Shown here one piece after another: positions 44,538 to 63,354 of a stretch of 64,000 bases of DNA. Each line of letters begins with the position of its first letter. Positions within the stretch are counted from its first letter, which is position 1. The translations under genes and the position numbers were made by a program. Origin of the DNA: Oceanospirillum beijerinckii DSM 7166 (GTDB lineage: Bacteria > Pseudomonadota > Gammaproteobacteria > Pseudomonadales > Halomonadaceae); the NCBI RefSeq assembly GCF_000422425.1, contig NZ_AULT01000010.1:62001-126000 (forward strand), written 5' to 3'. The notes beneath the pieces were generated by a model, which had not been told where the DNA came from, searched no databases, and saw only the letters and a list, made by a program, of their open reading frames with translations.

Positions 44538-44575
44538 AAATTATGAAAACTATATAAGCCATATATTGTACTTAT
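44538..44575 (+). promoter_or_regulatory. Conserved 38-bp element, candidate GcdR operator (gcdG copy)
   Basis: It matches the gcdR-gcdH intergenic copy (63317-63354) at 32 of 38 positions, including an unbroken 16-base core CATATATTGTACTTAT. Both contain the dyad TATAT-N5-ATATA with a LysR-type T-N11-A spacing. It lies 226 bases before the gcdG start at 44802. Confidence 0.7.
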
Positions 44576-44801
44576 TTCTCCCGCCTCGTTAACGTCCTTA
44601 AGTGCACCAGTAGCATAAACTGGTGACTGGAAGTCCACTCGATTTTTAACAACAACAAAATCGCAATATACCGCAGGGCGGAAGAAGTCGCCTGGTATCG
44701 GTCTATAAATTTTTGGCTAAGGAGCTTGAATGATCGGCTTTTGGCCCATACGGGAAGCGGTGTCTGAAACAGCCTCTTCCCATGCAGAGTTGGAGGGTTC
44801 T

Positions 44802-46058
44802 ATGGGCGCGCTATCCCATATACGTGTACTGGATATGAGTCGTATTCTGGCCGGTCCCTGGGCTGGTCAGATGTTGGCAGACCTGGGTGCAGATGTGATT
44901 AAGGTTGAGCGACCACAGCGTGGTGATGATACTCGCAGCTGGGGGCCACCCTGGATGGATGTGCGCTCACAGGAGCGAGGTGAAGCGGCTTATTATCTGT
45001 GTGCGAACCGTAACAAGCGCTCTCTGGCTCTGGATATTACCAGTCCTCAAGGACAAGCCGTGATTCGTAGTCTGGTGGCGGATTGCGATATTCTGCTGGA
45101 AAACTATAAGGTTGGCGGACTGAAAAAATATGGTCTGGATTACGACAGTCTTAAAGAGATCAATCCACGTCTGATCTACTGTTCCATTACCGGTTTTGGC
45201 CAAACAGGCCCTTACGCCAAACGTGCCGGGTATGATTTTCTGATTCAGGCTATGAGTGGTTTGATGAGTATTACCGGTGAGAAAGAAGGTCAACCGGGTG
45301 CGGGGCCACAGAAAGTTGGTGTGGCATTAACGGATATTCTGACCGGTATGTATGCCACGACTGGCGTCCTGGCAGCATTGGCGGCACGTGAGCGTACCGG
45401 CGAAGGTCAATATATCGACGTGGCGCTGATGGATGTGCAAGTCGCTTGCCTGGCAAACCAGTCCATGAACTATCTGGTATCCGGTCATTCACCGACACGT
45501 CTGGGTAATGCTCACCCGAATATCGTGCCTTACCAGAGTTTTGCCACGTCTGACGGTTATATGATTCTGGCTGTAGGTAACGATGACCAGTTCCGCAAGT
45601 TCTGTCTTGAAGCTGGTGTAGAGCACCTGGCTGATGATGAACGTTACTTAACGAATGCTTTACGTGTCGCGAACCGGGAAACGTTGAGTGCCACCTTGTC
45701 TGAGGTGATTATTACTCGTACTACCGCAGATTGGATTCAATCCCTGGAAGCGGTTTCTGTACCTTGTGGCCCAATTAATACCATAGGTGAAGCTTTTGCT
45801 GATCCGCAGATTCAGGCCAGAGGCATGCGTCTGAATATTCCTCATTCCCATTCAGCAGAGGGCAGTATGCCTGCGGTTGCCAACCCGTTGAAATTATCGG
45901 GTACACCCATTCAGTACGATACTCCAGCCCCTCTGCTCGGTGAGCATACCCGTGATGTGTTGAAAGAAGCAGGACTCAGTGAGCAACAGATTGAACAGCT
46001 GCATCAGCAGGGCGTGATTTCAGCTGTTTCAAGTCAAGAGGGAACAGCGGCTGAATAA
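44802..46058 (+). CDS. gcdG: Succinyl-CoA:glutarate CoA-transferase (class III, CaiB/BaiF family)
   Basis: 418 residues from ATG 44802 (GGAGGG site); this matches the usual N-terminus MGALSHIRVLDMSRILAGPWAGQ. An in-frame ATG at 44730 also has a strong AAGGAG and would add 24 residues, so two starts are possible. The catalytic Asp is D145 in GYDFLIQAMSGLM. The class III features RGDDTRSWGPP, YYLCANRNKRSLALD and GEGQYIDVALMD are clear. It activates glutarate to glutaryl-CoA for glutaryl-CoA dehydrogenase, whose gene starts at 63512. Usually the two genes are adjacent; here about 17.5 kb separates them, but both carry the same upstream element. Confidence 0.85.
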   Translation: MGALSHIRVLDMSRILAGPWAGQMLADLGADVIKVERPQRGDDTRSWGPPWMDVRSQERGEAAYYLCANRNKRSLALDITSPQGQAVIRSLVADCDILLENYKVGGLKKYGLDYDSLKEINPRLIYCSITGFGQTGPYAKRAGYDFLIQAMSGLMSITGEKEGQPGAGPQKVGVALTDILTGMYATTGVLAALAARERTGEGQYIDVALMDVQVACLANQSMNYLVSGHSPTRLGNAHPNIVPYQSFATSDGYMILAVGNDDQFRKFCLEAGVEHLADDERYLTNALRVANRETLSATLSEVIITRTTADWIQSLEAVSVPCGPINTIGEAFADPQIQARGMRLNIPHSHSAEGSMPAVANPLKLSGTPIQYDTPAPLLGEHTRDVLKEAGLSEQQIEQLHQQGVISAVSSQEGTAAE

Positions 46059-46187
46059 TTGAATTGCACTTACTATTTGAATCTAAGTGATCTGATGAGT
46101 CGATGACTGATTATCTGTATCTGCTTTTTCTAACGGTTAGATCAAAGGTTTCGACAGAGCCCTTTTCGCTGGAATGACCGTGTCTTT

Positions 46188-46215
46188 AGCCTGCCTTGTG
46201 CAGGCTTTTCTTTTC
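46188..46215 (+). terminator. Intrinsic terminator after gcdG
   Basis: AGCCTGC-CTTGT-GCAGGCT followed by TTTCTTTTCT, 130 bases after the gcdG stop. Confidence 0.75.
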
Positions 46216-46491
46216 TGTATCGTTCTATTTTGGTGAGAGGCCGCTTCTCTGAGTGGATATTTGGGAGGTCAGGTTTTATTTCCGGCTTTAAACGAAAGGT
46301 AACTGAAAAGGGGTCGCTCCAGACCCGCTTTAGGTTTATCTTATTGGACCTCCTGCTGTTATCATCCAAAGTAGTTTTATATCAAGCGGTTAGTTTTAGT
46401 GTGTTCAATAGGTATAGCAGGAAATTGATTGAGCCTGATCAAGCCCTTGGTGATAGCGTGCCAATAAGTATTTAAAACACGGAATAGAGAA
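46216..46491. other. Gap before the KfrA-like gene
   Basis: No supported gene. Overlapping frames of 75-81 codons on both strands have no ribosome site. A short hairpin GGGTC-N6-GACCC is present near 46310. The gap is AT-rich toward its 3' end and presumably carries the promoter of the next gene. Confidence 0.4.
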
Positions 46492-47433
46492 ATGAGTAGA
46501 GCAGAAATTACCTACGCCGAAGTAGCAACCGTCGCAGATTTACTTGTTTCAGAAAGTGAAACACCAAGTGCAAAAAGTATTAAAAGCAAGTTTGGGGATG
46601 AATGCAGTCTGGGGACTATACAGAAGCACTTAAGTACCTGGCGTGAAGCTCGTCAGGCAATGACGCCGCCCCGTGAGATTGAGTTATCCCCAGAGATGCA
46701 GGGGGTCTGGATTCGGGAAGTTGAACGTCAGGTTTCGTTAGCTAAAGCTGACTCCGAAGCTAATGTTGCTATGTTGACTGCTGAGTTAAATGATATGGCG
46801 ACGGAAGTTGAGCGTTTGGACGAAGATCGACGTAATATCACGAAAAATTGTGAAGAACTTCAGCAAGAAGTGGAGAATCTGCAAGAGCAACTGAGATTAC
46901 GACGCGAAGAAAACAGTAAATTATCAGAAGAACTGGCACTGGAGAAAAAGTCTGCAGAAAATGGTCGTATCTCACTGGTAAAAGAGCAGCTCAAGCTGGA
47001 TGCTTTGAAGGAACAGCAGGAAGCGCTGCGCAGCCAGTTGCTGGAATTGGAACGTGCGGTTACCGATGCGGGTAATGCCAAAAGTGATGCGAAGCGCAAA
47101 CAGTTTGAGATGGAAAAACTGTTGGCAGTAGAAGAGAGTAAGGTCGAAGGTCTGAACGAACAGAATCAGCTGAAGAGTGATCAGATTCAGCGCCTGGAGC
47201 TGGAAAAAGACTCCATGAAGCAGCAGCTAAGCAATCTGGAAAAAGAGCTGCGTGAGGCTCTGCAAAATCAGAAAAATATCGAGATTCAGGCGGCTGCAAG
47301 TGAAGGTCGTGTAAAACATCTGAGTGAAGTACAGGAAGAGCTGGTACTGGCCAAGAGCGAAATCAAAGAGCTGAAAAAGGACAATCAGAAAATTCGTGAA
47401 ATGCTCAATACCAGCTATATGTCCAAGTCTTAA
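46492..47433 (+). CDS. KfrA-like DNA-binding coiled-coil protein
   Basis: 313 residues. The N-terminal KfrA DNA-binding domain (ITYAEVATVADLLVSESETPSAKSIKSKFG in outline, then SLGTIQKHLSTWREARQ) is followed from about residue 70 to the end by one long alpha-helical coiled coil rich in Glu, Gln, Lys and Leu heptads. KfrA proteins are known from plasmids such as RK2 and R751, where they bind DNA and build a partition-linked scaffold. Here the gene is isolated between two terminators within a metabolic region, with no parA/parB or replication gene nearby. It may be a chromosomal homologue or a plasmid remnant. Confidence 0.82.
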   Translation: MSRAEITYAEVATVADLLVSESETPSAKSIKSKFGDECSLGTIQKHLSTWREARQAMTPPREIELSPEMQGVWIREVERQVSLAKADSEANVAMLTAELNDMATEVERLDEDRRNITKNCEELQQEVENLQEQLRLRREENSKLSEELALEKKSAENGRISLVKEQLKLDALKEQQEALRSQLLELERAVTDAGNAKSDAKRKQFEMEKLLAVEESKVEGLNEQNQLKSDQIQRLELEKDSMKQQLSNLEKELREALQNQKNIEIQAAASEGRVKHLSEVQEELVLAKSEIKELKKDNQKIREMLNTSYMSKS

Positions 47434-47489
47434 TCTGTCGCGTATCAAAACTGACCTTCGTTGAACTGATCGTTTAGTCATCAGTTTGA

Positions 47490-47533
47490 AAACGGCCTTA
47501 AAGTGAAAATCTCTTTAAGGCCGTTTGTTTTTC
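47490..47533 (+). terminator. Intrinsic terminator of the KfrA-like gene
   Basis: Perfect 14-bp stem AAACGGCCTTAAAG/CTTTAAGGCCGTTT with a nine-base loop and a GTTTTT tail. Confidence 0.9.
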
Positions 47534-47888
47534 TGGGCTGAGAAGCTCTGTTCTGTGAAATCATTCATCAATATGATCATCCATACCCCAGCTATCCGAG
47601 CATCATAAGCACACACACAAAAGTTTCTCTTTAGAAAATGGCTTTATTCTTCAGCCGTCGGCCAGAAAATATTGAAACACTTTTGTGTAAGTGGGTATAA
47701 GCGCACTAAACTGCGATATCAATGAATGCACTGAACGGCAAAAAACACTTCCCTGACCGCCAATATTGTTTCCTGACCAATTTTTATACTGCTTCTATCG
47801 GGTTAAACACCCGCCTGACTTTGCCAGCGGCACTGCCCTGTCGTTGGCGAACCACAACAAGAAGAGTACAAGAATAAAGGTACGAATT
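47534..47888. other. 355-base region upstream of the lactamase/hydantoinase operon
   Basis: It contains a 10-bp inverted repeat ACACAAAAGT (47615-47624) and ACTTTTGTGT (47679-47688), and an ATGCACTG octamer at 47726 that also occurs, as ATGCACAG, twice before the AraC gene. No coding frame with a ribosome site. It presumably holds the operon promoter. Confidence 0.5.
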
Positions 47889-49691
47889 ATGTCCAGTCGT
47901 GTAGATCCTATCACCCTGGCGGTCGTTCGGGGTGCGCTTGAAACCGCGCAGCGGGAGATGACCCTGACCCTGGAAAAAACCGGTCGTTCCAGTGTTTTTA
48001 ACCTGGCCCACGATTACAGTAATGCGCTGTTTGATCACTTCCCTGAAATGATTCTGCAGGGACAGGATATCCCGATTCACCTGGGTTCACTGATTCCGGC
48101 CATGAAAGAAGTGGCGGAGTATTTTGGTGATGATATCCATGAAGGCGATGTGATCTATCATAATGACCCCGCTTATAAAGGCAGCCATATTCTGGACTGC
48201 TGTATGTACAAACCAGTGTTCTATAAAGGTGAACTGGTGTTCTGGACGGTATGTAAAGGCCACCTGACCGATATTGGTGGTCCTGTGCCTGCCGGTTATA
48301 ACCCGGATGCCACCGAGATCTATGCGGAAGGCCTGCGTATTCCACCGGTGAAGTTGTGGGATAAAGGCAAACGCCGGGAAGATGTGATCAATCTGCTGCT
48401 GACCAATATGCGTGCCCGTCGTGATCAGGAAGGCGATCTGAACGCTCAGTACGGTGCCTGTCGTGTCGGTGAGCGTAACCTGTTGGCGCTGCTGGATAAA
48501 TACGGTGTTGAGCAGGTGCAGGCCTGTATTGCTGAGCTGAAAAATATGGCGGATGAGCAGATGAGAGCGCTGATCCGCGAAGTGCCGGACGGTGTCTATA
48601 CCGGCTCTGCGCTGCTGGAAGATGCCGGTCACGGTTTTGGCGAGATGGAGATCACTTCGACCATCACCATCCGTGATGACAAGGTGCATATCGAAGTGCA
48701 AAGCCCGCCTCAGGTGCCTTACTTTATCAACTCCTACGAAGGCAACTCCATGTCCGGTATCTATCTGGGCCTGATGATGTTTGCCCAGCTACCGCCGCCC
48801 TATAACGAAGGTTTGTATCGCTGTGTGACGGTGGATCTGGGAGAGAAGGGCACCTTGTGTAATGCGGAAGAACCGGCGCCTCACGTGAACTGTACCACTA
48901 CGCCGATGGAAACTCTGACCGATGCGGTGCGTAAGGCGTTTGAACAGGCGGCCCCCGAGCGTGTTACCGCCTCCTGGGGACATGCCAGCGGTATCAATAT
49001 CGCCGGTATCGACCCAAGAACCAACGAGCAGTATGTGACCATGGTGCTGGCATCGATTATCTCCGGTGCCGGTGCCACTCAGGTGATGGATGGTTGGCAC
49101 GCCTGTGGGCCGTTGTGTTGTTTTGGCGCCCTGAGTTCCGGTGATATTGAGCTGCTGGAATACTCCTATCCGATTGTCATCCGTCGTTATGGTTTGATTC
49201 AGGACAGTGGTGGTGCCGGTATGCATCGCGGCGGTTCCGGTACGGTTTGGGAGGTGGAACCGATCGATCATGAGATGACGGTGATCGCCTTTGGTGAAGG
49301 CCGTGAGATCCCGACTATGGGCGCAGCGGGTGCCGAAAACAAACTGCTGGAGCCGAAGCTGGGCAAACTGGTGGTACAGCGTGCAGACCAGTCTGAAGAG
49401 ATCCATAAGAAAAACACTATTCTGACGGTTAAGTCCGGTGAGCGTGTGGCTAACTTTAACCCCGGTGGAGGCGGTTTTGGTCATCCGTTACAGCGTGATC
49501 CTGTGGCTGTATTGGAAGATTACCGCAATGGCTTGGTTTCTCTGGAGGCGGCCAAGCTGGAGTATGGCGTGGTGTTGAATGCGGATTCTATCGGTGTTGA
49601 TCAGCAAGCTACCGAGCAACTGCGTCAGGCCCGTGGTGCCACAACAACAGATTCATCTCAATCAACCTCTACTAAACCAACGGCACAATAA
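47889..49691 (+). CDS. Hydantoinase B/oxoprolinase family protein (OplB-like lactamase subunit)
   Basis: 600 residues from ATG 47889 (AAAGG site), the standard start for the family: RVDPITLAVVRGALETAQREM. HyuB signatures are SNALFDHFPEMILQGQDIPIHLG, DVIYHNDPAYKGSHILD with metal-type Asp and His, GHLTDIGGPVPAGY, and near the end GGSGTVWEVEP and NFNPGGGGFGHPLQRDP. Together with the next gene it forms an ATP-dependent amidohydrolase that opens cyclic amides. Members act on hydantoins, 5-oxoproline and caprolactam or valerolactam, and some are carboxylases. The B-then-A gene order, the AraC gene and nearby glutarate genes favour a lactam substrate; this is inference. Confidence 0.85.
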   Translation: MSSRVDPITLAVVRGALETAQREMTLTLEKTGRSSVFNLAHDYSNALFDHFPEMILQGQDIPIHLGSLIPAMKEVAEYFGDDIHEGDVIYHNDPAYKGSHILDCCMYKPVFYKGELVFWTVCKGHLTDIGGPVPAGYNPDATEIYAEGLRIPPVKLWDKGKRREDVINLLLTNMRARRDQEGDLNAQYGACRVGERNLLALLDKYGVEQVQACIAELKNMADEQMRALIREVPDGVYTGSALLEDAGHGFGEMEITSTITIRDDKVHIEVQSPPQVPYFINSYEGNSMSGIYLGLMMFAQLPPPYNEGLYRCVTVDLGEKGTLCNAEEPAPHVNCTTTPMETLTDAVRKAFEQAAPERVTASWGHASGINIAGIDPRTNEQYVTMVLASIISGAGATQVMDGWHACGPLCCFGALSSGDIELLEYSYPIVIRRYGLIQDSGGAGMHRGGSGTVWEVEPIDHEMTVIAFGEGREIPTMGAAGAENKLLEPKLGKLVVQRADQSEEIHKKNTILTVKSGERVANFNPGGGGFGHPLQRDPVAVLEDYRNGLVSLEAAKLEYGVVLNADSIGVDQQATEQLRQARGATTTDSSQSTSTKPTAQ

Positions 49692-49703
49692 GGAGACCAG
49701 ACC

Positions 49704-51791
49704 ATGCGTAGTCAATATCGTTTAGGCATCGACGCCGGTGGCACCTTTACCGACTTTGTGCTGGCGGAAAATAACGGTGAGTTACGGGTATTTAAGAGTC
49801 CATCCACGCCACAGGATGGCACCATTGCAATTAAGGCGGGCTTAAGCCAGATCAGTGAAGCCTTGGGCAAATCCATTGAAGAGATCGTCCAGTCCTGTGA
49901 TCTGTGCATTAACGGTACCACGGTTGCGCTGAATGCGCTGATTGAGAAAAAAGGCGTTAAGGTGGGCCTGTTATGTACTGCCGGTCATGAGGACAGTCTG
50001 GAGATTCGTCTGGGCCATAAAGAAGAGGGTTATCGTTATGAGGCGGATTTCCCACCGGCTCATATGATCGCCCCTCGTCATCTGCGTAAGCCGATCAATG
50101 AGCGGGTACTGTCCAATGGCCAGATCGATCAGGCGATGGATGAGCAGGAGATCCGTGATGCCGTGGCCTACTTTAAAGCCCAGGGCGTAGAAAGTGTGGC
50201 TATCTCTTTTGTTTGGGCGGTACGTAATCCCGAGCATGAAAAACGTGCCAAAGAGATTGTGCAGGAGATGATGCCGGGGGTGTTTGTCTGTACCGGCAGT
50301 GAGGTTTATCCACAGGTGCGGGAATATACCCGTACCTCGACCACGGTGGTAAACGCTTACCTGAGTCCTGTGATGCGCCGCTATGTGGAAAAAATTGATG
50401 AGTACTTTCGTTCCTTAGGTGCTAAATATCCGGTGCGTTACTTCCAGTCCAACGGTGGTCTGGCCGTAGGCGAGGCGATGCAGGGGCGAGCGGTCAACGC
50501 CATTAATTCAGGTCCTGCTTCCGCACCGCAAGCCGGTTTGTTTGTCGGTCAGCCGTTTGATATCAACAATGTCATCACCGTGGATATGGGCGGCACCTCG
50601 TTTGATATCACCCTGACCAAAGACGGTCATACCAACCTGAATAAGAACATCGACTTCCTGCGTTATCGCATCGGTGTGCCTATGATTCAGGTGGAAACCC
50701 TGGGTGCCGGTGGTGGTTCCATCTGTCATGTGGATAAGTACGGCATGTTGCAGGTGGGCCCTGAGAGTGCCGGTGCGACACCGGGCCCTGTCTGTTACGG
50801 CAAGGGAGGTACACAGCCGACGGTGACCGATGCCAATTTGGTATTGGGCTACCTGAACCCAGCCGCGGTGCTGGGTGGGGCGATTCGTCTGGATCGTGAG
50901 GCAGCCATTCATGCGGTTAAAGCGCATGTGGCCGATCCGCTGGGTATCAGTGTCGAAAAAGCCGCTTTTGGTATCAGCACCATTGTGAATTTGAATATGG
51001 TGAATGGTATTCGCCGGGTATCCATCGAACGGGGTTATGACCCCCGTGATTTTGCCCTGTTGTGTGCCGGTGGCGCGGCGGGTATGCATATCACTGCGTT
51101 GGCGGAAGAGATCGGCAGTACCACAGTGCTGGTGCCTAAGGTGTCGTCAGTATTCTGTGCTTTTGGTCAGATTATCTCTGATGTACGTTATAACTATCTG
51201 GCTTCTGAGCCGATGCGTCTGGATGGCGAAGATGTGAACCTGGCTGCACTGAACGATAAGTTTGGTGAGCTGGAAGAGCAGGGTCGTGAGCATCTGCTAT
51301 CTGATGGTTTTGCCGATGAGCAGATCAGCTGCACTCGCAGTGTCGAAATGCGCTATGTCGGTCAGATCCATGAATGTACCGTCGAGATTCATCCCGGCAA
51401 AATCACCCAGGAGAAACTGGCGGCGATTCTGGATGATTTCCACAAGCGTCATGAAGAACTGTATACCTATAGTGAGCCGCATAACCCGGTGGAGCTGGTG
51501 AATATCGAATCCACCATGACCGGTCATGTAGCAAAACCGGACTTCCAGGACCTGATTGCCAAAGGCTCCAGTGCAGAAGAGGCCCTGATCGAATACCGTC
51601 CGGCGCTGTTTGATGCCGATGGTCACTGGATTGATACCGCGGTTTATTCCGGGCCTAAACTGGATGTGGGGCTGGAGATTCAGGGGCCTGCGATCGTGGA
51701 AGAGCCAACCACCAATATCGTGGTGCGCCCTGGTTGGACGCTGGTGCTGGAAAGCAACCATTGTTATCGCTTAACCAGAAGAGATGCCTGA
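49704..51791 (+). CDS. Hydantoinase/oxoprolinase A family protein (OplA-like, ATP-binding subunit)
   Basis: 695 residues; AAGGAG precedes the ATG, 12 bases after the HyuB stop, so the two are cotranslated in one operon. N-terminal ASKHA-type phosphate loop GIDAGGTFTDFVLAE, then INGTTVALNALIEKKGVKVGLL, EVYPQVREYTRTSTTVVNAYL, a second phosphate motif VDMGGTSFDITL near residue 295, GAGGGSICHVD, and SAGATPGPVCYGKGGTQPTVTDAN. HyuA subunits phosphorylate the cyclic amide with ATP before ring opening by HyuB. A terminator and RNA structure follow. Subunit of caprolactamase, valerolactamase (OplBA) or hydantoinase type; the exact substrate is unproven. Confidence 0.87.
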   Translation: MRSQYRLGIDAGGTFTDFVLAENNGELRVFKSPSTPQDGTIAIKAGLSQISEALGKSIEEIVQSCDLCINGTTVALNALIEKKGVKVGLLCTAGHEDSLEIRLGHKEEGYRYEADFPPAHMIAPRHLRKPINERVLSNGQIDQAMDEQEIRDAVAYFKAQGVESVAISFVWAVRNPEHEKRAKEIVQEMMPGVFVCTGSEVYPQVREYTRTSTTVVNAYLSPVMRRYVEKIDEYFRSLGAKYPVRYFQSNGGLAVGEAMQGRAVNAINSGPASAPQAGLFVGQPFDINNVITVDMGGTSFDITLTKDGHTNLNKNIDFLRYRIGVPMIQVETLGAGGGSICHVDKYGMLQVGPESAGATPGPVCYGKGGTQPTVTDANLVLGYLNPAAVLGGAIRLDREAAIHAVKAHVADPLGISVEKAAFGISTIVNLNMVNGIRRVSIERGYDPRDFALLCAGGAAGMHITALAEEIGSTTVLVPKVSSVFCAFGQIISDVRYNYLASEPMRLDGEDVNLAALNDKFGELEEQGREHLLSDGFADEQISCTRSVEMRYVGQIHECTVEIHPGKITQEKLAAILDDFHKRHEELYTYSEPHNPVELVNIESTMTGHVAKPDFQDLIAKGSSAEEALIEYRPALFDADGHWIDTAVYSGPKLDVGLEIQGPAIVEEPTTNIVVRPGWTLVLESNHCYRLTRRDA

Positions 51792-51865
51792 TCGCAGATG
51801 GACTGAATGATGTATCGAGGCTAATGGGTGGGATAGGATGTTTCGCTCGTTACAAGGCATAAAGC

Positions 51866-51966: not shown

Positions 51967-52041
51967 ATTTCTGGATTTGGATCATCTATGGGCAAAAAAC
52001 AACGGATTCTTAAAACAACATAAAAGCATCTGCACCGTGTT

Positions 52042-52083: not shown

Positions 52084-52149
52084 GTCTTTAATGCTTAAAC
52101 CGATGCAGCACATGGATATGAACTGAATAAAAATAAAAGAGGTGTTCAT

Positions 52150-54876: not shown

Positions 54877-55198
54877 TAATTTGTCTGTCTTTGTGACTAT
54901 GACTGTATAGTCAGTTTTGTTTTTTGCTGAGCAACAGAATTTATATGTATGCCATACAAGATCTTAATAAGACTAAGGTTGAATAGTCGGCCTTAATACT
55001 CTTAAATCCCCACCCAGTATCCGGCCATAGGTTTTCTTGCCCCCGTCTTGTAAAAAACCTTGTGATATCAGACGAAAACGCTGTTTTTGTATCTGGCTTC
55101 AAGTATTTGCTCTAAAGTTGGTTTTATTATTCCTCATAGAGGGTATGGACTTTGAGACAGGGATTCGATATTGAACTATAATTGATTTTTATGGCAGG

Positions 55199-55223
55199 TA
55201 TAAATGTCATATATTTTACTTAT
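55199..55223 (+). promoter_or_regulatory. Third copy of the candidate GcdR element (TRAP operon)
   Basis: CATATATTTTACTTAT at 55208-55223 matches the 16-base core of the gcdG and gcdH elements with one change. The preceding TATAA-N5-ATATA keeps the dyad with one imperfect position. It lies 211 bases before the dctP start, in the same orientation. Confidence 0.5.
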
Positions 55224-55397
55224 TTCAGCGATACCGATAACTTCATTTCAGCGAGTGCAGGGGCTAGATCAAGGCCGGATTCCAGTCAATAGAACAGAAG
55301 TGTGTTGTCGCAAGGCAAAATGCTCATGGAGTGCTTATCCCTATTGGCACGTTCTGACTGGAAAAATTCGCGAGGGAGCTGTCGCCGGATGGTACCC

Positions 55398-55414: not shown

Positions 55415-55434
55415 AGTAAAAAGAGTAGATAACA

Positions 55435-56460
55435 ATGCTGAAGAAATTTGCGAAACTGAAGAAACAGATTGTCACAGGCTCCCTGTCTGTTGCTCTGGGT
55501 GTAGGCGCAGTGACGGCTACGGCTTCTGCCTATGCGGCTGAGCACAACTGGCGTTTTGCTAACCTGTACACCCGTGGTACTGCGTTTGGTGATGTATACG
55601 GCAGCATGGCTGAGAATATCGAGACGATGTCCGGTGGCCGTATTAAAGTGAAAATGATGTACGCCGGTGAAGGTGTTGATACCCGTGGTATTCTGGGCGG
55701 CGTTAAGTCCGGTCTGATCACGATGGGTGCACACTTCCAGCCAATGAACGCCGGTGAACTGCCAGCGGGTATCGTTGAAGTGGGTCTGCCAGGTGGTACG
55801 GCAGATGTGGGCGAGCTGAGTGTTCTGTTCCACGAGAAAGGCTTCAACGAAGTACTGACCCGTGCTTACGCTGAGCAAGGTATGGTTTATCTGAACCCAT
55901 ACATTCAGCCACCTGTATATCTGCTGACTAAAAAACCAATCAACTCCGTTGAAGATTTTAAAGGCCTGAAACTGCGTGCGCCAGGTGCTTACGGTAAGTT
56001 CGTACGTAACCTGGGTGCTTCTCCTGTCTCCATGACCTGGAGTGAAATCTATACAGGTCTGGCCACTGGCGTAATCGATGGCTCTATCGGTAGTAACCTG
56101 ATTGACCACCGCGACGGTAACCACGCTGAAGTGGCTAAGTATATGTACCGTCTGCCACTGGCAGGTGCTCAGGTACTGCCTGTTGTAGTGAACAAAAAAG
56201 CATGGGACAAACTGCCTGACGATCTGAAAGCGATCGTTAAAGCGGCGACTGCAGTACACGCTCGTGATCAGATGACTAAATCCCGTCTGTGGGAGTCTCA
56301 GGCGATCGCTGATATGGAAGCGAAGGGTATGAAGTGGAGCCCTGAGCCAAGCGAAGCAGATAAAGCGGCTTGGGCGAAAGCCGGTGAGAATCTGTGGGGC
56401 GAGTACGCTAAGAGCGACAAGTTCAGTGCTGAGCTGGTTGAAATTCTGAAGAAGCAGTAA
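55435..56460 (+). CDS. TRAP transporter periplasmic solute-binding protein (DctP family)
   Basis: 341 residues. Signal peptide with basic start (MLKKFAKLKKQ) and cleavage probably after ASAYA near residue 34. The conserved carboxylate-binding Arg is R181 in LKLRAPGAYG, followed by SEIYTGLATGVIDGSIGSN, a family hallmark. Substrates of this family are mostly C4-C6 organic acids. Between the lactam genes and the glutarate hydroxylase, and with the candidate GcdR element upstream, glutarate or a relative such as 2-hydroxyglutarate is the likely ligand. A terminator-like hairpin right after the gene probably keeps binding protein in excess over the membrane subunits. Confidence 0.9.
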   Translation: MLKKFAKLKKQIVTGSLSVALGVGAVTATASAYAAEHNWRFANLYTRGTAFGDVYGSMAENIETMSGGRIKVKMMYAGEGVDTRGILGGVKSGLITMGAHFQPMNAGELPAGIVEVGLPGGTADVGELSVLFHEKGFNEVLTRAYAEQGMVYLNPYIQPPVYLLTKKPINSVEDFKGLKLRAPGAYGKFVRNLGASPVSMTWSEIYTGLATGVIDGSIGSNLIDHRDGNHAEVAKYMYRLPLAGAQVLPVVVNKKAWDKLPDDLKAIVKAATAVHARDQMTKSRLWESQAIADMEAKGMKWSPEPSEADKAAWAKAGENLWGEYAKSDKFSAELVEILKKQ

Positions 56461-56504
56461 GAGGCTGATCTTACTCAACCTTCTGAATTGACGTTCCGTT
56501 GTTA

Positions 56505-56540
56505 AATAAAGGGCGATTATCTCGCCCTTTATTTTTTTCT
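56505..56540 (+). terminator. Terminator-like hairpin between dctP and dctQ
   Basis: AATAAAGGGCGA/TCGCCCTTTATT, perfect 12-bp stem, loop TTATC, then a T run. It lies inside the operon, 17 bases before the dctQ start; partial termination would favour dctP expression. Confidence 0.85.
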
Positions 56541-56556
56541 ATCAGGCTATGGCGTT

Positions 56557-57114
56557 ATGGTTAAAAAGTTAATTATTTTCTACTGTACAGGGATCGACCG
56601 GCTTATCAGTTTCATTGGAAAAAGCATATCGTTGCTGATGCCATGTCTGGCGTTGGTGATCGCGTACGAAGTATGTTCCCGATATGTCTTTAACCAACCA
56701 ACGATCTGGGCCTACGACACCTCGTTGTTTTTCTCTGCCTATCTGGCAGCTTTAGGTGGGGCATATGCCTACCAGAAGAATGCCCATATCAACGTGGATA
56801 TTCTCTATCTGGCGGTATCCAATAAAACGAAGCGTGTATTTAACATTCTGACGGGTGTTTTGGCCGCTTTCTTTATGTTGATTCTGATCTTAATGGCCCG
56901 CGAAAAGTTTGCTGAGGCTGTGAAATTTGATTACCGCAAAATGAGTAACTGGGCACCACCAACGCATCACTTCTGGATGATGCTGATTGTGGCTGCCGTG
57001 CTGATTATTCTGCAGATCTCCAGCAATATGATGAAAGACATTTTCTATATCTTTACCGGTCAGGACCTGCTACCTGAGCCAGAAATCGATACCGAGCAGG
57101 AGGATGACCAATGA
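56557..57114 (+). CDS. TRAP transporter small membrane subunit (DctQ family)
   Basis: 185 residues, four membrane helices: SISLLMPCLALVIAYEVCSRYVFN, with the family pattern R-Y-x-F-N then W, SAYLAALGGAYAYQKNAHINVDI with the conserved A-x-x-H-I-N-V-D, a third helix FNILTGVLAAFFMLILILM, and HHFWMMLIVAAVLIILQ. It forms the membrane complex with DctM. Its stop overlaps the dctM start (ATGA), so the two are translationally coupled. The ribosome site is weak, consistent with lower output than dctP. Confidence 0.92.
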   Translation: MVKKLIIFYCTGIDRLISFIGKSISLLMPCLALVIAYEVCSRYVFNQPTIWAYDTSLFFSAYLAALGGAYAYQKNAHINVDILYLAVSNKTKRVFNILTGVLAAFFMLILILMAREKFAEAVKFDYRKMSNWAPPTHHFWMMLIVAAVLIILQISSNMMKDIFYIFTGQDLLPEPEIDTEQEDDQ

Positions 57115-58433
57115 TGGGAATTGAACTACTAACCGGCATTCTGCTGCTGTGTATTCTGGTCAGTTTTGCCTTGGGTGCACCGGTTGGCTTTGCTCTGGGT
57201 GGCATCGCTATGGCGGTGGGCTACTTTACCTGGGGGGATGGCATCTTCCAGATAGTGCCAAACACCTTTGAGTCGGTACTGTTCAGCTTTATTCTGCTGT
57301 CGATTCCACTCTATATCTATATGGGCCAGTTGTTGACCCGTTCTGGTATCGGGGACGCCATGTTTAATGCCAGTCAGCTGGTGATTGGTAAGCTGCGTGG
57401 TTCTCTGGCGATCAGTGTGATTGGCGTCTGCTCCATGATCGGTGCCATGGTGGGGATTATTGGGGCCGGTATTATGACCTCCGGTAGTATCGCCCTGAAG
57501 CCTATGCTGGATCGTGGTTACGATAAGAAACTGGCGTTAGGCGTGATTATGGCCGGTGGTGGTCTGGGTATTCTGATTCCACCCAGCGTACCTATGATTA
57601 TGTTCGCGGCATCCACCCAAAACTCTGTGGGTAAGATGTTTGTTGCGGCACTGTTCCCCGCATTATTGGCGATTATCTTTCTGGTTAGCTACATCATTAT
57701 CAGCTGTAAGCTGAACCCGGAGCGCGCGCCGCTGGGAACCGGTGCAGAAGCCAAGATGACACCGAAAGAGAAGGCACGCACCCTGCGTGACGGCTTTATG
57801 TCTGTCTTCCTGATCTTTGCGGTACTGGGCAGTATTATCAGTGGTATTGCTACTCCTACTGAGTCCGGTGCTATTGGTGTCGTTGGCGCGGTGATTCTGG
57901 CCTTCTTCTTTAAGCGTTTCCGTTTGGGCATGTTTAGAATGGCCGGTATGGAAACGGCCATGCTGGTGAGTGTGGCCATGTGGATTATTTTGGGTGCCAC
58001 CCTGTTCAGTAACTTCCATCTGATGATGGGCGTGCAGGATATGATCGCCAGCTTTACCCAGGATCTGGGCTTACCGCCTCTGGGTGTGGTGATCCTGATG
58101 CAGCTGGTGATGCTGGCGCTGGGCTTTATCATCGACGAATTTATTATCGTTTTGATGTGCGCGCCGCTGTTTACACCGATTGTCGTGGATCTGGGTTTTG
58201 ACCCGATCTGGTTCGGTATCCTGATGATTCTGAATATCGAGATCGCGGTACAAACACCACCTTACGGTTTTGCACTCTTCTACCTGAAAGGGATCGCACC
58301 GCCAGGGGTGACCATGCTGGATATTTATAAATCGGTCACGCCTTTCATCTTATTGAAACTTTGTGTGTTGATTATCTGCATGCTGTTCCCGGAACTGGTG
58401 ATGTGGTTACCCAATAAAGTGATGGGGCCCTAG
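57111..58433 (+). CDS. TRAP transporter large membrane subunit (DctM family)
   Basis: 440 residues with about 12 membrane helices; sodium-coupled transport channel of the TRAP system. Signatures are ALGAPVGFALGGIAMAVGY, LSIPLYIYMGQLLTRSGIGDAMFNAS, GAGIMTSGSIALKPMLDRGYDKKLALGVIMAGGGLGILIPPSVPMI in outline, FIIDEFIIVLMCAPLFTPIV and the terminal PPYGFALFYLKGIAPPGV. It overlaps dctQ by four bases and precedes the Usp gene by 18, so all four belong to one operon. Confidence 0.95.
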   Translation: MMGIELLTGILLLCILVSFALGAPVGFALGGIAMAVGYFTWGDGIFQIVPNTFESVLFSFILLSIPLYIYMGQLLTRSGIGDAMFNASQLVIGKLRGSLAISVIGVCSMIGAMVGIIGAGIMTSGSIALKPMLDRGYDKKLALGVIMAGGGLGILIPPSVPMIMFAASTQNSVGKMFVAALFPALLAIIFLVSYIIISCKLNPERAPLGTGAEAKMTPKEKARTLRDGFMSVFLIFAVLGSIISGIATPTESGAIGVVGAVILAFFFKRFRLGMFRMAGMETAMLVSVAMWIILGATLFSNFHLMMGVQDMIASFTQDLGLPPLGVVILMQLVMLALGFIIDEFIIVLMCAPLFTPIVVDLGFDPIWFGILMILNIEIAVQTPPYGFALFYLKGIAPPGVTMLDIYKSVTPFILLKLCVLIICMLFPELVMWLPNKVMGP

Positions 58434-58451
58434 AGGTTAAAGAGACTGGAT

Positions 58452-58889
58452 ATGTACAACACAATTCTGATCCCTATGGATCTGGAACATGAAGAGATGT
58501 TCCCTAAAGCCGTTGAACTGGCAAAGCAGCTGATCGGTGATGAAGAGGGTGTCATTCACGGTATCTATGTGGATGAATCCCTGATCCATCATTCGAACTT
58601 CTCTATCTCTGGCGATGCGGTAGTATCCGCTCGCCAGGAGACTAAGCAGAAGGTGAAAAAGCTATTTAAAAAATATGTGCCTGAAGCGCTGCGTGGTAAG
58701 TGCCGGGTTAGCCAGGGTGTGGTTTATGATGCCGTACTGGATGAAGCGAAAAAACAGCAGCCTGAAGTGATTATTGTGGCTTCAGGTCGTCCTGGTTTAT
58801 CCAGTTACCTGATGGGTTCCAATGCGGAAAAAATCCTGCGTCACTCTAAGTGCTCAGTATTTGTTATCCGTGATGAGCATAAATGGTAA
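58452..58889 (+). CDS. Universal stress protein (UspA family) of the TRAP operon
   Basis: 145 residues, one Usp domain: NTILIPMDLEHEE at the start, the ATP-site region VIIVASGRPGLSSYLMGSNAEKIL, and the end SVFVIRD. The nucleotide loop is shorter than the usual G-x2-G-x9-G-S (six residues between the second and third Gly), so ATP binding may differ. A Usp gene closing a TRAP operon recalls TeaD of the ectoine TRAP system, which tunes transport activity; the same role is suggested here by position. A terminator follows. Confidence 0.9.
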   Translation: MYNTILIPMDLEHEEMFPKAVELAKQLIGDEEGVIHGIYVDESLIHHSNFSISGDAVVSARQETKQKVKKLFKKYVPEALRGKCRVSQGVVYDAVLDEAKKQQPEVIIVASGRPGLSSYLMGSNAEKILRHSKCSVFVIRDEHKW

Positions 58890-59001
58890 AAAAACGACGG
58901 CTTTGCTTGAATTTTTGCCGCTAACGGTTATCATGCCCGGCCAGAGTTTATGACTCAACAGTTTTAGCTTCTTAAGTCTATCCGATAAAGAGGCATTCGC
59001 G

Positions 59002-59040
59002 AGGCCCCACTCCCACAAGGAGATGGGGCCTTGTTCTTTC
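59002..59040 (+). terminator. Terminator between the TRAP operon and glaR
   Basis: AGGCCCCACTCC pairs with GGAG-A-TGGGGCCT around a CACAA loop, followed by TTGTTCTTTC. Placed between converging genes. Confidence 0.8.
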
Positions 59041-59074
59041 TGTCAGGAAGATTATGGTGGAAGTCGTTGGTGGT

Positions 59075-59758
59075 TTACAGCATCAGCTGCTTGATAATCG
59101 GGATCGGGCTGATTAGATGCTCATACATCAATTGTTTGGCTTTCACGGTATCTCTGGTGAGCAGAGCATCCACCATATCGGCATGTTCCCTGCGCTTTTC
59201 CTCCAGTGCCGATTGTGAGAACACTGTCTTCTTCAGCCATAAATGGCGGTAGCGCTCGGCCTGATCCTGTAGTGATGCTCGCAACTCCAGTAGCTTGGCT
59301 GAACCACAACCCTGCGCAATAGCGGTGTGGAAAGCTTTATGGCGACTGTCCCACACTTCCAGCATCTCATCCGGGGTATTGATCTCGTTCACCCGGGCCA
59401 GTTTATGGGCTTCCCCCAGTACGGTGGCTTCCCAATCTTCATCGCCTCGCTCGATGGCCAGCTCGGTGATCATGGCTTCCAGGTGAGCACGGGCATCATA
59501 TATGTCGGTCAACTCTTCCAGTGACATCTCGGCCACACGAAAGCCCCGCTGGCTGATTGCGGTCACTAAACGGTCGGCCACCAGCTGAGACAGTGCTTCG
59601 CGCATAGGGCCAGCGCCAATGTCATAGCTTTCCTTCAGATGGCTCATCAGCAGCTTATCTCCAGGCTGATGTACCCCGTTGATAATATCCTGCTTGAGCA
59701 GCTTATAAGCGATAGTGGCTTGATTTGCTTTGCTTTGTGGCGTGCTGTCTGAGCTCAT
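59075..59758 (-). CDS. glaR: GntR-family repressor GlaR (CsiR type)
   Basis: 227 residues, FCD branch of GntR proteins. Winged helix: YKLLKQDIINGVHQPGDKL then LKESYDIGAGPMREALSQLVADRLV and QRGFRVAEMS. Ligand domain with IYDARAHLEAM, DSRHKAFHTAIAQGC, RREHADMVDAL (metal-type Asp/His positions). In E. coli the equivalent CsiR/GlaR represses glaH (csiD) and lhgO and is released by glutarate. Here it is divergent from glaH with 179 bases between starts. Its operator could not be fixed; an AT-rich dyad TAAAAAT-N6-ATTTTTA lies at 59841-59860. Confidence 0.85.
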   Translation of the reverse strand: MSSDSTPQSKANQATIAYKLLKQDIINGVHQPGDKLLMSHLKESYDIGAGPMREALSQLVADRLVTAISQRGFRVAEMSLEELTDIYDARAHLEAMITELAIERGDEDWEATVLGEAHKLARVNEINTPDEMLEVWDSRHKAFHTAIAQGCGSAKLLELRASLQDQAERYRHLWLKKTVFSQSALEEKRREHADMVDALLTRDTVKAKQLMYEHLISPIPIIKQLML

Positions 59759-59937
59759 GTTGGCGTCCGTGATGACCGAATGCCACCGATTATAAACCCA
59801 CGGGGCAAAGGGATGAAATGTTCATTTTGTCTATAAAGAATAAAAATGTAGATATTTTTAAATAATAAATATATTATTCTCGGCAGATGGCATTTGATGT
59901 GTCGCATAAACCCTATATGCACTTCAGGAGTCGAGAG

Positions 59938-60909
59938 ATGAGTGTTGTTGAACAAGCAGGCATCCCTGCAGAAACGAAATACCAAGGTTTTACTTTATCC
60001 GTATCTGAGCAGAGCAATGGCCGCCTGCTGCAACTGACGTTCAACAAGGAAACCGTTGATCAATTTTTCGCGGCGATTGAGGAATGGCCTATTCAGGCGC
60101 TGGAGTACAAATCGTTCCTGCGTTTCCGTGTTGCTAAAGTACTGGACGATCTGTGTGGTAATCAGCTGCAGTCTCTGCTGATCGATACGCTGGTTGATCG
60201 TAACACCGGTGCGCTGCTGATCACTCCTGAAGGCCTGGATGATGTGTCTCAGGCAGAAGATATGGTGCGTTTCACCACAGCCGCATCTCACTTGATGGGC
60301 CGTTCTAACTTTGATGCCATGAGCGGTAAGTACTACGCACGTTTCGCGGTAGTGAACAGCGATAACTCTGATAGCTACCTGCGTCAGCCACACCGTGTCA
60401 TGGAACTGCACAACGACGGCACTTACGTTGAAGAAGATACTGACTTCAATCTGATGCTGAAGATCGATGAGCAGAACATGGAAGGCGGTAACTCTCTGCT
60501 ACTGCATCTGGATGACTGGGAAGATCTGGAGAAGTTCTCTACCCATCCTCTGGCCTATCGTCCAATCCGTTGGGCTGTGCCGCCGAGTAAAAATATCTCT
60601 AAGGATATCTACCACCCAGTATTTGATCTGGACGTAAACGGTGATGTGATCAGCTCTTACATCGATCAGTTTGCACAACCTGCAAACTTTGAAGAAGGTG
60701 TATGGCTATCTGAGCTGGGCGAATCTTTTGAAAGCAGTAAAGGTATTCAGTCGATCCGTGTACCTGTGGGTAGCTTCCTGTTGATCAACAACCACATGTG
60801 GTTACATGGTCGTGATAAGTTTACTCCGCACGAAGGTCTGCGTCGTGAACTGATGCGTCAGCGTGGTTACTTCACTCATAAGAAGACACTGCGTAAGCCA
60901 CGTCAGTGA
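59938..60909 (+). CDS. glaH: Glutarate 2-hydroxylase GlaH (CsiD), Fe(II)/2-oxoglutarate dioxygenase
   Basis: 323 residues from ATG 59938 (GGAG/GAGAG site); an earlier in-frame ATG at 59887 is unsupported. It converts glutarate plus 2-oxoglutarate and O2 to L-2-hydroxyglutarate, succinate and CO2. The iron triad is H158-x-D160 (ELHNDGTY) and H290 ([12 protein letters not shown]), with the 2-oxoglutarate-binding Arg near 309 ([11 protein letters not shown]). These match H160, D162 and H292 of E. coli GlaH, allowing two residues of offset. The [25 protein letters not shown] stretch is family-specific. It is followed by a terminator and lhgO. Confidence 0.95.
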
Positions 60910-61025
60910 TTTCGTTGCGTAAGTAACTCTGCTTTAAAACTAGTTGTGATAAGTGAAGTTAGTCCTGACTATGGACTTGTTTCAACAGTAGCTGTATCGA
61001 AAGATCGCTGCTGAGATTAAAAAAG

Positions 61026-61060
61026 ACCTCTGAAAGGCATCGCGTCCTTTCAGGGGTTTT
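61026..61060 (+). terminator. Terminator between glaH and lhgO
   Basis: CCTCTGAAAGG pairs with CCTTTCAGGGG (one G-U) and a T4 tail follows. lhgO starts 20 bases later, so read-through or a separate promoter is needed. Confidence 0.7.
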
Positions 61061-61080
61061 CGCGTCGAGCGAGGGATAGA

Positions 61081-62274
61081 ATGTACGATTACATTATCAT
61101 CGGTGGTGGCATTGTCGGTATGTCCACTGCGATGCAGCTACTGCAACAACAACCGGGTAAAAAACTGCTGGTTGTGGAAAAAGAAGCCCAGGTGGCACAA
61201 CATCAGACCGGTCATAACAGTGGTGTGATTCACGCGGGTGTTTACTACACGCCGGGTAGCCTGAAGGCCAAGTTCTGTCTGGAAGGCAATAAGGCAACAA
61301 AAGCCTTCTGTGACGAAAACGATATTCCTTACGATGAGTGCGGTAAGCTGTTGGTTGCCACCAACGAGCTGGAAATGGAACGCATGAAAGCATTGTGGGA
61401 ACGTACCGAGGCCAATGGTTTGGAGCGTTACTGGCTGAATGCTGATGAGTTGAAAGCCCGTGAGCCGAATATCACGGGGATCGGTGGTATCTTTGTACCG
61501 TCCAGTGGCATCGTCAGCTACCGTCGTGTCACCGAAGTGATGGCGGAAAAAGTGCGTGAGATGGGTGGTGAAATCCAGTTTAACTGCGAAGTGACTGCGC
61601 TGAAGGAAGGTGATTCCGAAGTGACGGTTTTCACCAGCCGTGGCAGTTTTACCAGCCGCTATATGATCTCCTGCTCTGGTCTGATGGCCGACCGAGTGGT
61701 GAAAATGCTGGGTATCAAACCGAAGTTTAAGATCTGCCCGTTCCGCGGTGAATACTACCTGCTGAAGCCAGAGCATAATCAGGTGGTGAACCATCTGATC
61801 TATCCGATCCCAGACCCCAGTATGCCGTTCCTGGGTGTACACCTGACCCGTATGATCGACGGCACCGTCACCGTAGGTCCAAACGCGGTCATGGCGTGGA
61901 AGCGTGAGGGTTACAAAAAGACCGATATCTCACTGAAAGACAGTTTTGAAGCCCTGACCTACCCAGGTATTCTGAAGGTGCTGTACAAGAACCTGAAGCC
62001 GGGTCTGATCGAAACCAAGAACTCGCTGTTTAAAGGTCAGTATCTGAAGGAAGTGAATAAGTACTGTCCTAAGATTGTGAAGTCTGATCTGACCGCATAC
62101 CCTGCGGGTGTACGTGCTCAGGCAGTATCGGAAGACGGTAATCTGGTGGATGACTTCCTGTTTGTGAATACCAAGCGCACCATCAATGTGTGTAATGCAC
62201 CGTCTCCGGCAGCGACCTCAGCAATTCCGATTGGTAAGCATATTCTGGAAACTGCGGCTAAGGTTTTTGCCTGA
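61081..62274 (+). CDS. lhgO: L-2-hydroxyglutarate oxidase/dehydrogenase LhgO
   Basis: 397 residues, membrane-associated FAD enzyme that oxidises L-2-hydroxyglutarate to 2-oxoglutarate and passes electrons to the quinone pool. N-terminal dinucleotide fold DYIIIGGGIVGMSTAMQLL, HQTGHNSGVIHAGVYYTPGSLKA near residue 41, SCSGLMADRV, ICPFRGEYYLLKPEH and C-terminal GVRAQAVSEDGNLVDDF with PSPAATSAIPIGKHI. It completes the GlaH route to the TCA cycle. The purine-rich GAGCGAGGGATAG supplies the ribosome site. Confidence 0.95.
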   Translation: MYDYIIIGGGIVGMSTAMQLLQQQPGKKLLVVEKEAQVAQHQTGHNSGVIHAGVYYTPGSLKAKFCLEGNKATKAFCDENDIPYDECGKLLVATNELEMERMKALWERTEANGLERYWLNADELKAREPNITGIGGIFVPSSGIVSYRRVTEVMAEKVREMGGEIQFNCEVTALKEGDSEVTVFTSRGSFTSRYMISCSGLMADRVVKMLGIKPKFKICPFRGEYYLLKPEHNQVVNHLIYPIPDPSMPFLGVHLTRMIDGTVTVGPNAVMAWKREGYKKTDISLKDSFEALTYPGILKVLYKNLKPGLIETKNSLFKGQYLKEVNKYCPKIVKSDLTAYPAGVRAQAVSEDGNLVDDFLFVNTKRTINVCNAPSPAATSAIPIGKHILETAAKVFA

Positions 62275-62342
62275 TAGGTCGATATCAGCGCTTAGTCAGA
62301 GTCTATTGGTAATCACGGGCCCTGGCGTGCTACTCAAGTCGT

Positions 62343-62385
62343 AATAATGCCCGGTGGACGGAGATCCACCGGGCATTATTTTTTG
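62343..62385. terminator. Bidirectional terminator between lhgO and gcdR
   Basis: Perfect 16-bp stem AATAATGCCCGGTGGA/TCCACCGGGCATTATT, loop CGGAGA, T run on the plus side and AT on the other. It lies between converging genes. Confidence 0.9.
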
Positions 62386-62387
62386 TA

Positions 62388-63278
62388 CTATGCTCGCTCA
62401 ATCTCGTTAGGCAGGTGTTCCTGCATAAAATCTACAAAGGCGCGACTGGCTTTGGACAGATAGTGATTTTTCTTCCAGCCCAGGCCGATATAAAGCGGGA
62501 TCTTGGGCTCAAAGGGCAGAGTTACTACGGGATCGCCTGGCTTAACAATACGCGACAGCCCGGTACTTATCCCGACCTCGCTGACTACCATGGCTTTAAG
62601 CAGATCAATCAGGTTGGTTTCAAAACGGATATCGAGTCGAATATGCTGCTGTTTGGAATATTGGCTGACCGCTTCACGCAGGAAATAACCTTCTCGAAAT
62701 AGCACCAGGGGCTGCTGGCAGAAATCGGCCAGTTTCATTGAGCTTTGTTTTGATAGTGGGTGATTACAGGGCACCAGAGCGACCATATCTTCTGCAAACA
62801 GGTTGACGCAGCGGATCTGATCATGGGGGCGGTCAGAGCGAATCAGGGCAATGTCCAAGGCTCCTTCCAGTAGCATCTGTTGCAGAGAGGCCGTTCCGGC
62901 TTCGATCAGGTTGATTCTGACCTTGGGGTATTTCTGCTTAAATTTAGCCAGTACATTAGGTAAATAGTAGGAACTGAGCATGCTGGAGGCACCAAATTGT
63001 ATGGTGCCAGTCTCGATGCCCTTCAGTTCCTGGATCTCTAATTCCGCCTGATTGACCGATTCCAGAATACGTTGCGCGTGCTTTAACAGCACCTCTCCAT
63101 CTGCAGTCAGAGTCATCTGGCGCTCTGCCCGGTTAACCAGTTTAAGTCCGACCTCATCCTCTAACTTCTTGATTGCCATACTTAAAGCCGGTTGGGCGAT
63201 GCCCAGATGAGTTGCGGTATGGGTGAAGTTACCGATCTTAGCCAAACTACAGAAATACTTGAGCCGTTTCAGATCCAC
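62388..63278 (-). CDS. gcdR: LysR-family regulator GcdR
   Basis: 296 residues from GTG 63278 with GAGGAG upstream. N-terminal helix-turn-helix of LysR proteins: LKRLKYFCSLAKIGNFTHTATHLGIAQPALSMAIKKLEDEVG in outline, then the periplasmic-binding-protein-like effector domain (GTIQFGASSMLSSYYLPNVLAKF, ALDIALIRSDRP, EVGISTGLSRIV). It is divergent from gcdH, the classical place for GcdR, the activator of glutaryl-CoA dehydrogenase genes in Pseudomonas. The conserved 38-bp element lies 38 bases upstream of its start, suggesting autoregulation. Effector probably glutarate or glutaryl-CoA (inferred). Confidence 0.82.
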   Translation of the reverse strand: MDLKRLKYFCSLAKIGNFTHTATHLGIAQPALSMAIKKLEDEVGLKLVNRAERQMTLTADGEVLLKHAQRILESVNQAELEIQELKGIETGTIQFGASSMLSSYYLPNVLAKFKQKYPKVRINLIEAGTASLQQMLLEGALDIALIRSDRPHDQIRCVNLFAEDMVALVPCNHPLSKQSSMKLADFCQQPLVLFREGYFLREAVSQYSKQQHIRLDIRFETNLIDLLKAMVVSEVGISTGLSRIVKPGDPVVTLPFEPKIPLYIGLGWKKNHYLSKASRAFVDFMQEHLPNEIERA

Positions 63279-63316
63279 TGGATGCCACTCCTCATGCGGG
63301 TTAGGGCTATCAACTT

Positions 63317-63354
63317 AAATTATTGAAACTATATCTATCATATATTGTACTTAT
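63317..63354 (+). promoter_or_regulatory. Conserved 38-bp element, candidate GcdR operator (gcdR-gcdH copy)
   Basis: Same element as at 44538-44575, with all six differences outside the core: AAATTAT, AAACTATAT and CATATATTGTACTTAT are shared, and the TATAT-N5-ATATA dyad is kept. It lies between the divergent gcdR and gcdH genes, as expected of a LysR-type operator. Confidence 0.75.

Follow-up and report, generated by a model that had tools for sequence, protein, structure and literature searches.

A 64-kb window of the genome of Oceanospirillum beijerinckii (genome G000; 5.3 Mb in 99 contigs) carries three copies of one DNA element, upstream of gcdG, of a TRAP transporter operon and of gcdH. 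The element is very likely the promoter-fused operator of the LysR-type regulator encoded at 62388-63278, which, with an inducer that is most likely glutarate, would drive all three transcription units. The enzymes encoded by gcdH and gcdG act on glutaryl-CoA and glutarate, as NCBIfam also records. Because the three sites are kept in relatives despite gene shuffling, one LysR-type protein probably switches glutarate breakdown and uptake together. The dispersed regulon of gcdH, gcdG and TRAP genes, which the original prediction had proposed from the letters of the window, appears very well supported by comparison with relatives, and it puts forward, for glutarate catabolism in bacteria other than Pseudomonas, a particular operator that can be tested. 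No account of this regulon was found in titles and abstract openings of open-access literature, a scope that leaves absence unproven; what is new, as far as that search reaches, is the operator, a regulator that is not orthologous to Pseudomonas GcdR, the TRAP promoter as a target and a connection to the YnfM-linked regulators.

Three copies of one element and their conservation in relatives

The three sites are copies of one element, and on re-reading their sequences and positions were as first described. As originally stated, copies 1 and 3 have the same base at 32 of 38 positions, and the TRAP copy, when lengthened to 38 bp, is identical to each of them at 27 of 38. The E-values below come from a model built from relatives' sites.

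44538..44575, plus strand: operator copy 1, upstream of gcdG (E 7.3e-8)
55186..55223, plus strand: operator copy 2, upstream of the TRAP operon (E 1.8e-4)
63317..63354, plus strand: operator copy 3, between the divergent gcdR and gcdH (E 6.2e-8)

In the whole genome, ATATATTNTACTTAT has three exact matches, which are the three window sites. Allowing one mismatch adds a single match on another contig (contig 47, L004), a short locus in which tblastn at 1e-5 found no match to 15 window proteins. Within the window the statistical rarity of the 16-base core by itself is modest: at up to three mismatches it has three matches against 0.62 expected, and 2 of 100 shuffles also reach three. The weight of the case therefore falls on comparison with relatives. 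A weight matrix built from 11 relatives' sites, with the window sites excluded, scores the three copies at 51.0, 46.5 and 34.6, against 13.1 for the next best position in the window and a maximum of 12.0 in 60 Markov-simulated 64-kb sequences.

The relatives comprised five genomes of the genus (G001-G005, among them O. sediminis as G002 and O. multiglobuliferum as G005, with O. linum, maris and sanctuarii) and 52 genomes outside it. The relatives-only model, built from 13 sites, was searched over eight whole genomes; its training set excluded G000, G081 (a member of another family) and the G002 site at the TRAP operon, and the remaining hits match partly by construction. In G000 it returned the three window sites and a fourth, partial match at E 0.09, with no strong hit elsewhere; 150 of 2067 first-look candidates were scored, so weaker sites may be missed. 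G001-G004 each gave three hits at E < 1e-4 (weakest 2.7e-5), at gcdH, in the gcdR|gcdG gap and before trapS, the TRAP binding-protein gene. G005, where the order is gcdR|gcdH-gcdG and the sole TRAP copy is a different one, gave a single hit (E 2.0e-8). One hit lay between gcdR and gcdH in Motiliproteus (E 5.0e-5; its site is a member of the training set) and one in G081 (E 0.0024). Weaker hits were partial only, at 0.08 or worse outside G002, to which we return below. A check of the kind proposed with the original prediction, a scan of this genome and its relatives, recovered the same promoters, and the element, far from being absent in close relatives, stands at all three promoters in G001-G004 and at the gcdR|gcdH promoter in G005.

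An exact 15-mer has one match in each of the five congeners, each upstream of gcdH, and is present in 1 of the 52 genomes outside the genus. A blind scan with the 15-mer over 390 order-level genomes gave 20 matches outside G000, among which G081 is the only gcdR|gcdH gap; the other 19 were scored by matrix only, two loci reaching 14.8 and 18.2. At the 15-mer of G047 (L026), a short locus, tblastn at 1e-5 found no match to 15 window proteins. That a similar 15-mer turns up in 20 of 390 genomes, that the core is A/T-rich and that shuffles sometimes reach three core matches would suit a chance likeness of A/T-rich promoters. Set against the matrix scores, the model E-values and the conservation at the same promoters in relatives, that explanation has a negligible probability.

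Gene order differs among these genomes. The window reads gcdG, a further block, TRAP, csiR, glaH, lhgO, gcdR|gcdH, with three sites; G001-G004 read gcdR|gcdG, TRAP, csiR, glaH, lhgO, gcdH, also with three sites; O. multiglobuliferum, Motiliproteus and G081 have gcdR|gcdH-gcdG and one site. Comparison of these orders shows that gcdH and gcdG lie apart in five genomes, and that in each of them both genes retain their own site. The gcdR|gcdG gap of G001-G004 holds a variant ending CTATATATTGTAATTAT, and their third site, before the TRAP binding-protein gene, has the variant CATATNYTTTACTTAT, each kept across species. Unlike those gcdG sites, the window gcdG site has the gcdH-type core CATATATTGTACTTAT, and copy 1 may therefore well have originated by duplication of a gcdH-type site. 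The broader proposal that a promoter fragment was duplicated recently, so that the copies are not operators maintained independently of one another, could draw on this core and on the agreement of copies 1 and 3. It is nonetheless very improbable: there are only three copies in 5.3 Mb, their flanks differ, the gcdG and TRAP variants of G001-G004 are maintained across species, and where absence at the same promoters in relatives was looked for, sites were present instead.

Layout of the proposed operator and promoter

Alignment of 18 sites gives a conserved unit of about 58 bp; the 38-bp element of the original prediction was real as a shared element but stopped short of this. The consensus of 17 gcd/TRAP sites is ...TTAT..aAA.TATA..t..cATATAtTgTAcTTAT, and that of 17 sites linked to genes for YnfM-like transporters (discussed below) is ...TtAT.......ATA......ATATATTTT..T.AT. 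In both sets the two top symmetry axes fall at columns 21 and 11, with column 31 within the top six, so that the axes follow in 10-bp steps; the TATAT-N5-ATATA dyad first noticed in the window is centred on column 21, the best axis in both sets. T-N11-A occurs at columns 14-26 and 25-37 in 17/17 gcd/TRAP sites and at columns 5-17 in 15/17, although single matches of this kind come easily in A/T-rich sequence. The element thus has the marks of a LysR operator: T-N11-A boxes and dyad symmetry beside a putative promoter. Farther downstream, columns 53, 54 and 55 are T, A and A in 16, 16 and 15 of the 18 sites, and column 58 is T in 17. With TTGTAC or TTTTAC taken as the -35 and nnTAAC as the -10, the spacer is 16 bp. 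The putative promoter elements, placed by the 18-site alignment, are as follows.

44566..44571, plus strand: putative -35 TTGTAC, copy 1
44588..44593, plus strand: putative -10 GTTAAC, copy 1, 16-bp spacer
55214..55219, plus strand: putative -35 TTTTAC, copy 2
55236..55241, plus strand: putative -10 GATAAC, copy 2, 16-bp spacer
63345..63350, plus strand: putative -35 TTGTAC, copy 3
63367..63372, plus strand: putative -10 GCTAAC, copy 3, 16-bp spacer

From this conservation we infer that operator and promoter are fused: four A/T half-sites, spaced by one helical turn, lead into a -35 and a weak -10. A tetramer of the regulator would contact the half-sites at about columns 4-7, 14-17, 24-27 and 35-38, all on one face of the DNA, and the last A/T run would overlap the TTGTAC -35 of a weak promoter with a 16-bp spacer and an nnTAAC -10. 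With inducer, most likely glutarate, the regulator would recruit RNA polymerase at the gcdH, gcdG and TRAP promoters, and its own divergent gene may be under its control as well. The overlap with the putative -35 would equally fit a repressor operator, at which the regulator holds down three promoters until ligand relieves them. This alternative is unlikely: LysR regulators at weak, short-spaced promoters mostly activate, and GcdR of Pseudomonas putida, though not an orthologue, activates gcdH according to the part of its description that was available (PMC6667623).

The regulator and its branch of the LysR family

62388..63278, minus strand: LysR-type regulator "gcdR", by LysR model matches and tree not orthologous to Pseudomonas GcdR

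The protein has the size (about 300 amino acids), N-terminal helix-turn-helix and LysR effector domain of the LysR type, and its gene is divergent from gcdH. It shares 74-80% identity with five congeneric orthologues and matches many LysR models over its full length, the 25 listed all scoring under their curated cutoffs; the best is CidR at 207 (cutoff 415), and the protein is CidR/CynR/GltC-like. Its sole match at E<=1e-30 among solved structures is a Rubisco-operon LysR regulator. The original prediction had named it GcdR, but orthology to the characterised Pseudomonas protein of that name was rejected. Identity with the LysR protein beside Pseudomonas gcdH (L175) is 23%; that protein matches GcvA at 285.5 bits, just under the cutoff of 288, and lies on a separate LysR branch with a different operator, AGTGA-N7-TCACT, exact in the gcdH gaps of Pseudomonas L174 and L175 and altered in L172. 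The name GcdR is thus misleading for the window regulator.

A tree of 48 rows places the gcd-linked regulators from Oceanospirillum, Motiliproteus and G081 in one group with those from five genomes of another family (support 95/94). The group's 13 rows (11 gcd-linked regulators plus two identical rows of one orphan) lie far from Pseudomonas GcdR. Two unrelated LysR branches occupy the same place beside gcdH. P. putida KT2440 GcdR activates gcdH and responds to glutarate, and the sections available of the work describing it give AGTGA-N7-TCACT as its operator and the gcdH operon as its target (PMC6667623). As far as that text goes, the two systems are alike in a LysR gene divergent from gcdH, a role in glutarate catabolism, an inverted-repeat operator of the T-N11-A kind, and a glaH/csiD promoter left to CsiR (PMC6667623); they differ in LysR branch, in operator sequence and in targets, the window having three dispersed promoters, one of them that of a TRAP transporter.

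Order-wide, 31 of 390 genomes match the regulator at E<=1e-90. Among 30 genomes with loci, seven have the gene divergent from gcdH (the window, G081 and five of family f6) and one has an orphan; of the remaining 22 loci, 21 adjoin a YnfM-like gene. Leaving aside long-branch E. coli YnfL, the LysR proteins closest to the gcd-linked clade belong to Vibrionaceae and other families (Photobacterium, Vibrio, Neptunomonas, Bacterioplanes, Geomonas and others). Their genes stand divergent from those of YnfM-like transporters, and most are accompanied by variants of the same operator. Across all YnfM-linked loci, 45 of 46 contain a match to YnfM. These regulators have a similar operator layout and the same recognition stretch, but share only about 40% identity with the window regulator and have a major facilitator superfamily transporter as neighbour. 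In the three genomes of this type searched (Photobacterium SKA34, Neptunomonas marina, Bacterioplanes), gcdH was not found at E<=1e-80.

The operator tracks this branch. A site within 150 bp upstream of the LysR gene, matched by no more than 3 of 300 dinucleotide shuffles, was found at 8 of 9 gcdR|gcdH divergent loci (the ninth, L048, has its site at 144-181 bp, just beyond the span) and at 43 of 46 YnfM-linked loci, against 5 of 15 more distant Pseudomonas LysR loci, none of three Pseudomonas GcdR loci and not at the one orphan. The element thus follows the LysR gene, the outcome that the original prediction called for. The site points away from the LysR gene at 42 of 46 YnfM-linked and 5 of 9 gcdH-linked loci. 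Use of the element by another regulator, a LysR paralogue or a GcvA-like homologue of Pseudomonas GcdR encoded elsewhere, with the adjacent LysR gene incidental, could appeal to the presence in G000 of one such homologue (34% identical, contig 42) and of many weaker LysR candidates. It is a distinctly poor prospect, since the operator variants follow the LysR branch across families, beside its gene, whether the neighbour is gcdH or YnfM-like, while the Pseudomonas-type operator differs and the G000 homologue lies on a contig other than that of the gcd genes. A second, Pseudomonas-type regulator was considered separately and rejected, G000-G005 having one homologue each at E<=1e-50 (33-35% identical).

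Several observations weigh against the element being the operator of this regulator. Sites from a single genus cannot be counted as independent, and the sequence is rich in A and T; O. sediminis (G002) has two extra partial hits, at E 0.009 and 0.017 (L163, L167; contigs 152, 297); the best match is reversed at three of nine gcdR|gcdH loci (L180, L182, L183), although the site itself is quasi-symmetric. Among the YnfM-linked loci many are closely related to one another; L019, L020 and L194 fail the shuffle test, and L017-L020 score low. Finally, the orphan (L178/L049; 57% by tblastn) shows no site over the 197 bp that its contig extends upstream; a search of its metagenome-assembled genome, 87% complete, for gcdH at E<=1e-80 came up empty.

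The recognition stretch A28 Q29 P30 A31. S33 is present in 11/11 gcd-linked regulators and, apart from P30 (82%), in all 28 YnfM-linked regulators aligned. Effector-domain residues Y104, G128, Y198, R201 and N222 are common to 96-100% of these 39 proteins, a pattern consistent with a shared ligand though no proof of one. E. coli YnfM is a reported glutarate exporter, to judge from the portion of that 2025 report available (PMC12622518); the YnfM-like proteins here share 30-43% identity with it, so other substrates are possible. Very probably the element serves as operator for a LysR subfamily whose members drive a YnfM-like transporter or, in the present case, glutarate catabolism and a candidate TRAP importer. 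More speculatively, and with the odds somewhat against it, this may be a glutarate-sensing subfamily with one conserved operator serving a YnfM-like glutarate exporter or, in one clade, gcdH/gcdG and a dedicated TRAP glutarate importer, and holding in that clade the seat beside gcdH held elsewhere by the unrelated Pseudomonas-type GcdR. With export and catabolism split in this way inside one operator family, whether the ligand is shared can be tested directly, and new glutarate biosensors could come of it.

E. coli YnfL/HusR, also a LysR regulator divergent from ynfM, is reported to activate ynfM in stationary phase, and the box reported for it is CnGnnnAnnTnnnCnG, as given in the excerpt available (PMC12844172). 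It was rejected as a close model: identity is 27%, the reported box is different, the best matrix score in the ynfL-ynfM gap is -5.0, and its long branch attaches next to the gcd-linked group with weak support (87/68). Some more distant Pseudomonas LysR genes (28-34% identity, L063-L092) have an upstream TTGTGAT..ATCATAACAATATATTT element, perhaps an older variant of the same operator. In the orphan's genome (an Aestuariirhabdus assembly, L049/L178), PII-like and ammonium-transporter-like open reading frames, recognised by eye, follow the relative of the regulator.

Proposed target genes and neighbouring sequence

44805..46058, plus strand: gcdG, succinate--glutarate CoA-transferase type (NCBIfam NF052585, 557.8 bits, under the 750 cutoff; orthologues in G001-G005)
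55435..58433, plus strand: TRAP transporter operon (NCBIfam NF037995 and TIGR00786 above cutoff)
55435-56460, plus strand: DctP-type binding protein of the TRAP operon
56557-57114, plus strand: small permease of the TRAP operon, assigned by position
57111-58433, plus strand: large permease DctM of the TRAP operon
63512..64000, plus strand: gcdH, glutaryl-CoA dehydrogenase type, 392 amino acids, extending beyond the window end (the 163-residue fragment is below the model cutoff)

Orthologues of gcdH are 92-97% identical in congeners and 72-73% in Pseudomonas. For gcdG there are two candidate starts, 44730 (the longer reading frame) and 44805, each with a plausible ribosome-binding site by eye; 44805 is the likely one, favoured by the relatives' sequence.

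The TRAP transporter is nominated as a candidate glutarate importer; before its own work on E. coli KgtP, the 2025 paper states in the portion available, no microbial glutarate-uptake transporter had been characterised (PMC12622518). The literature searched yielded no assay of the TRAP system. A second homologue of the binding protein, with about 70% identity, lies on another contig in all six genomes of the genus and is the sole copy in G005; in G000 this paralogue (L217) is at 77440-78444 of contig 11, with 68% identity. The contigs carrying it gave no model hit at E<=1 in the six genomes, and solved structures gave no match to the TRAP binding protein at E<=1e-30.

A weaker 10-of-16 match before glaH, pointed out in the original prediction, is noise, with a score of -45.7 and rank 65,432 of about 128,000 positions. 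The best matrix score within 300 bp of glaH is -2.0, and the glaH promoters of G000-G004, the five genomes with glaH, gave no model hit at E<=1. With no operator upstream by matrix or model, glaH was rejected as a member of the regulon.

The block at 46492-54756, between gcdG and the TRAP operon, was not found in the stretches fetched from five congeners. It includes a caprolactamase beta match above cutoff (47766-49691), a partner subunit and a permease named by eye, and an AraC-type gene with a FeaR match below cutoff (52150-53091); the block possibly serves lactam use feeding glutarate. From 55435 to 64000, identity to O. sediminis (L028) is uneven: about 96% for gcdH, glaH, lhgO and the large TRAP permease, 90% for the binding protein and 85% for the small permease. 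Lower values are seen for gcdG (84%), csiR (83%), gcdR (78%) and a universal-stress-type gene (77%).

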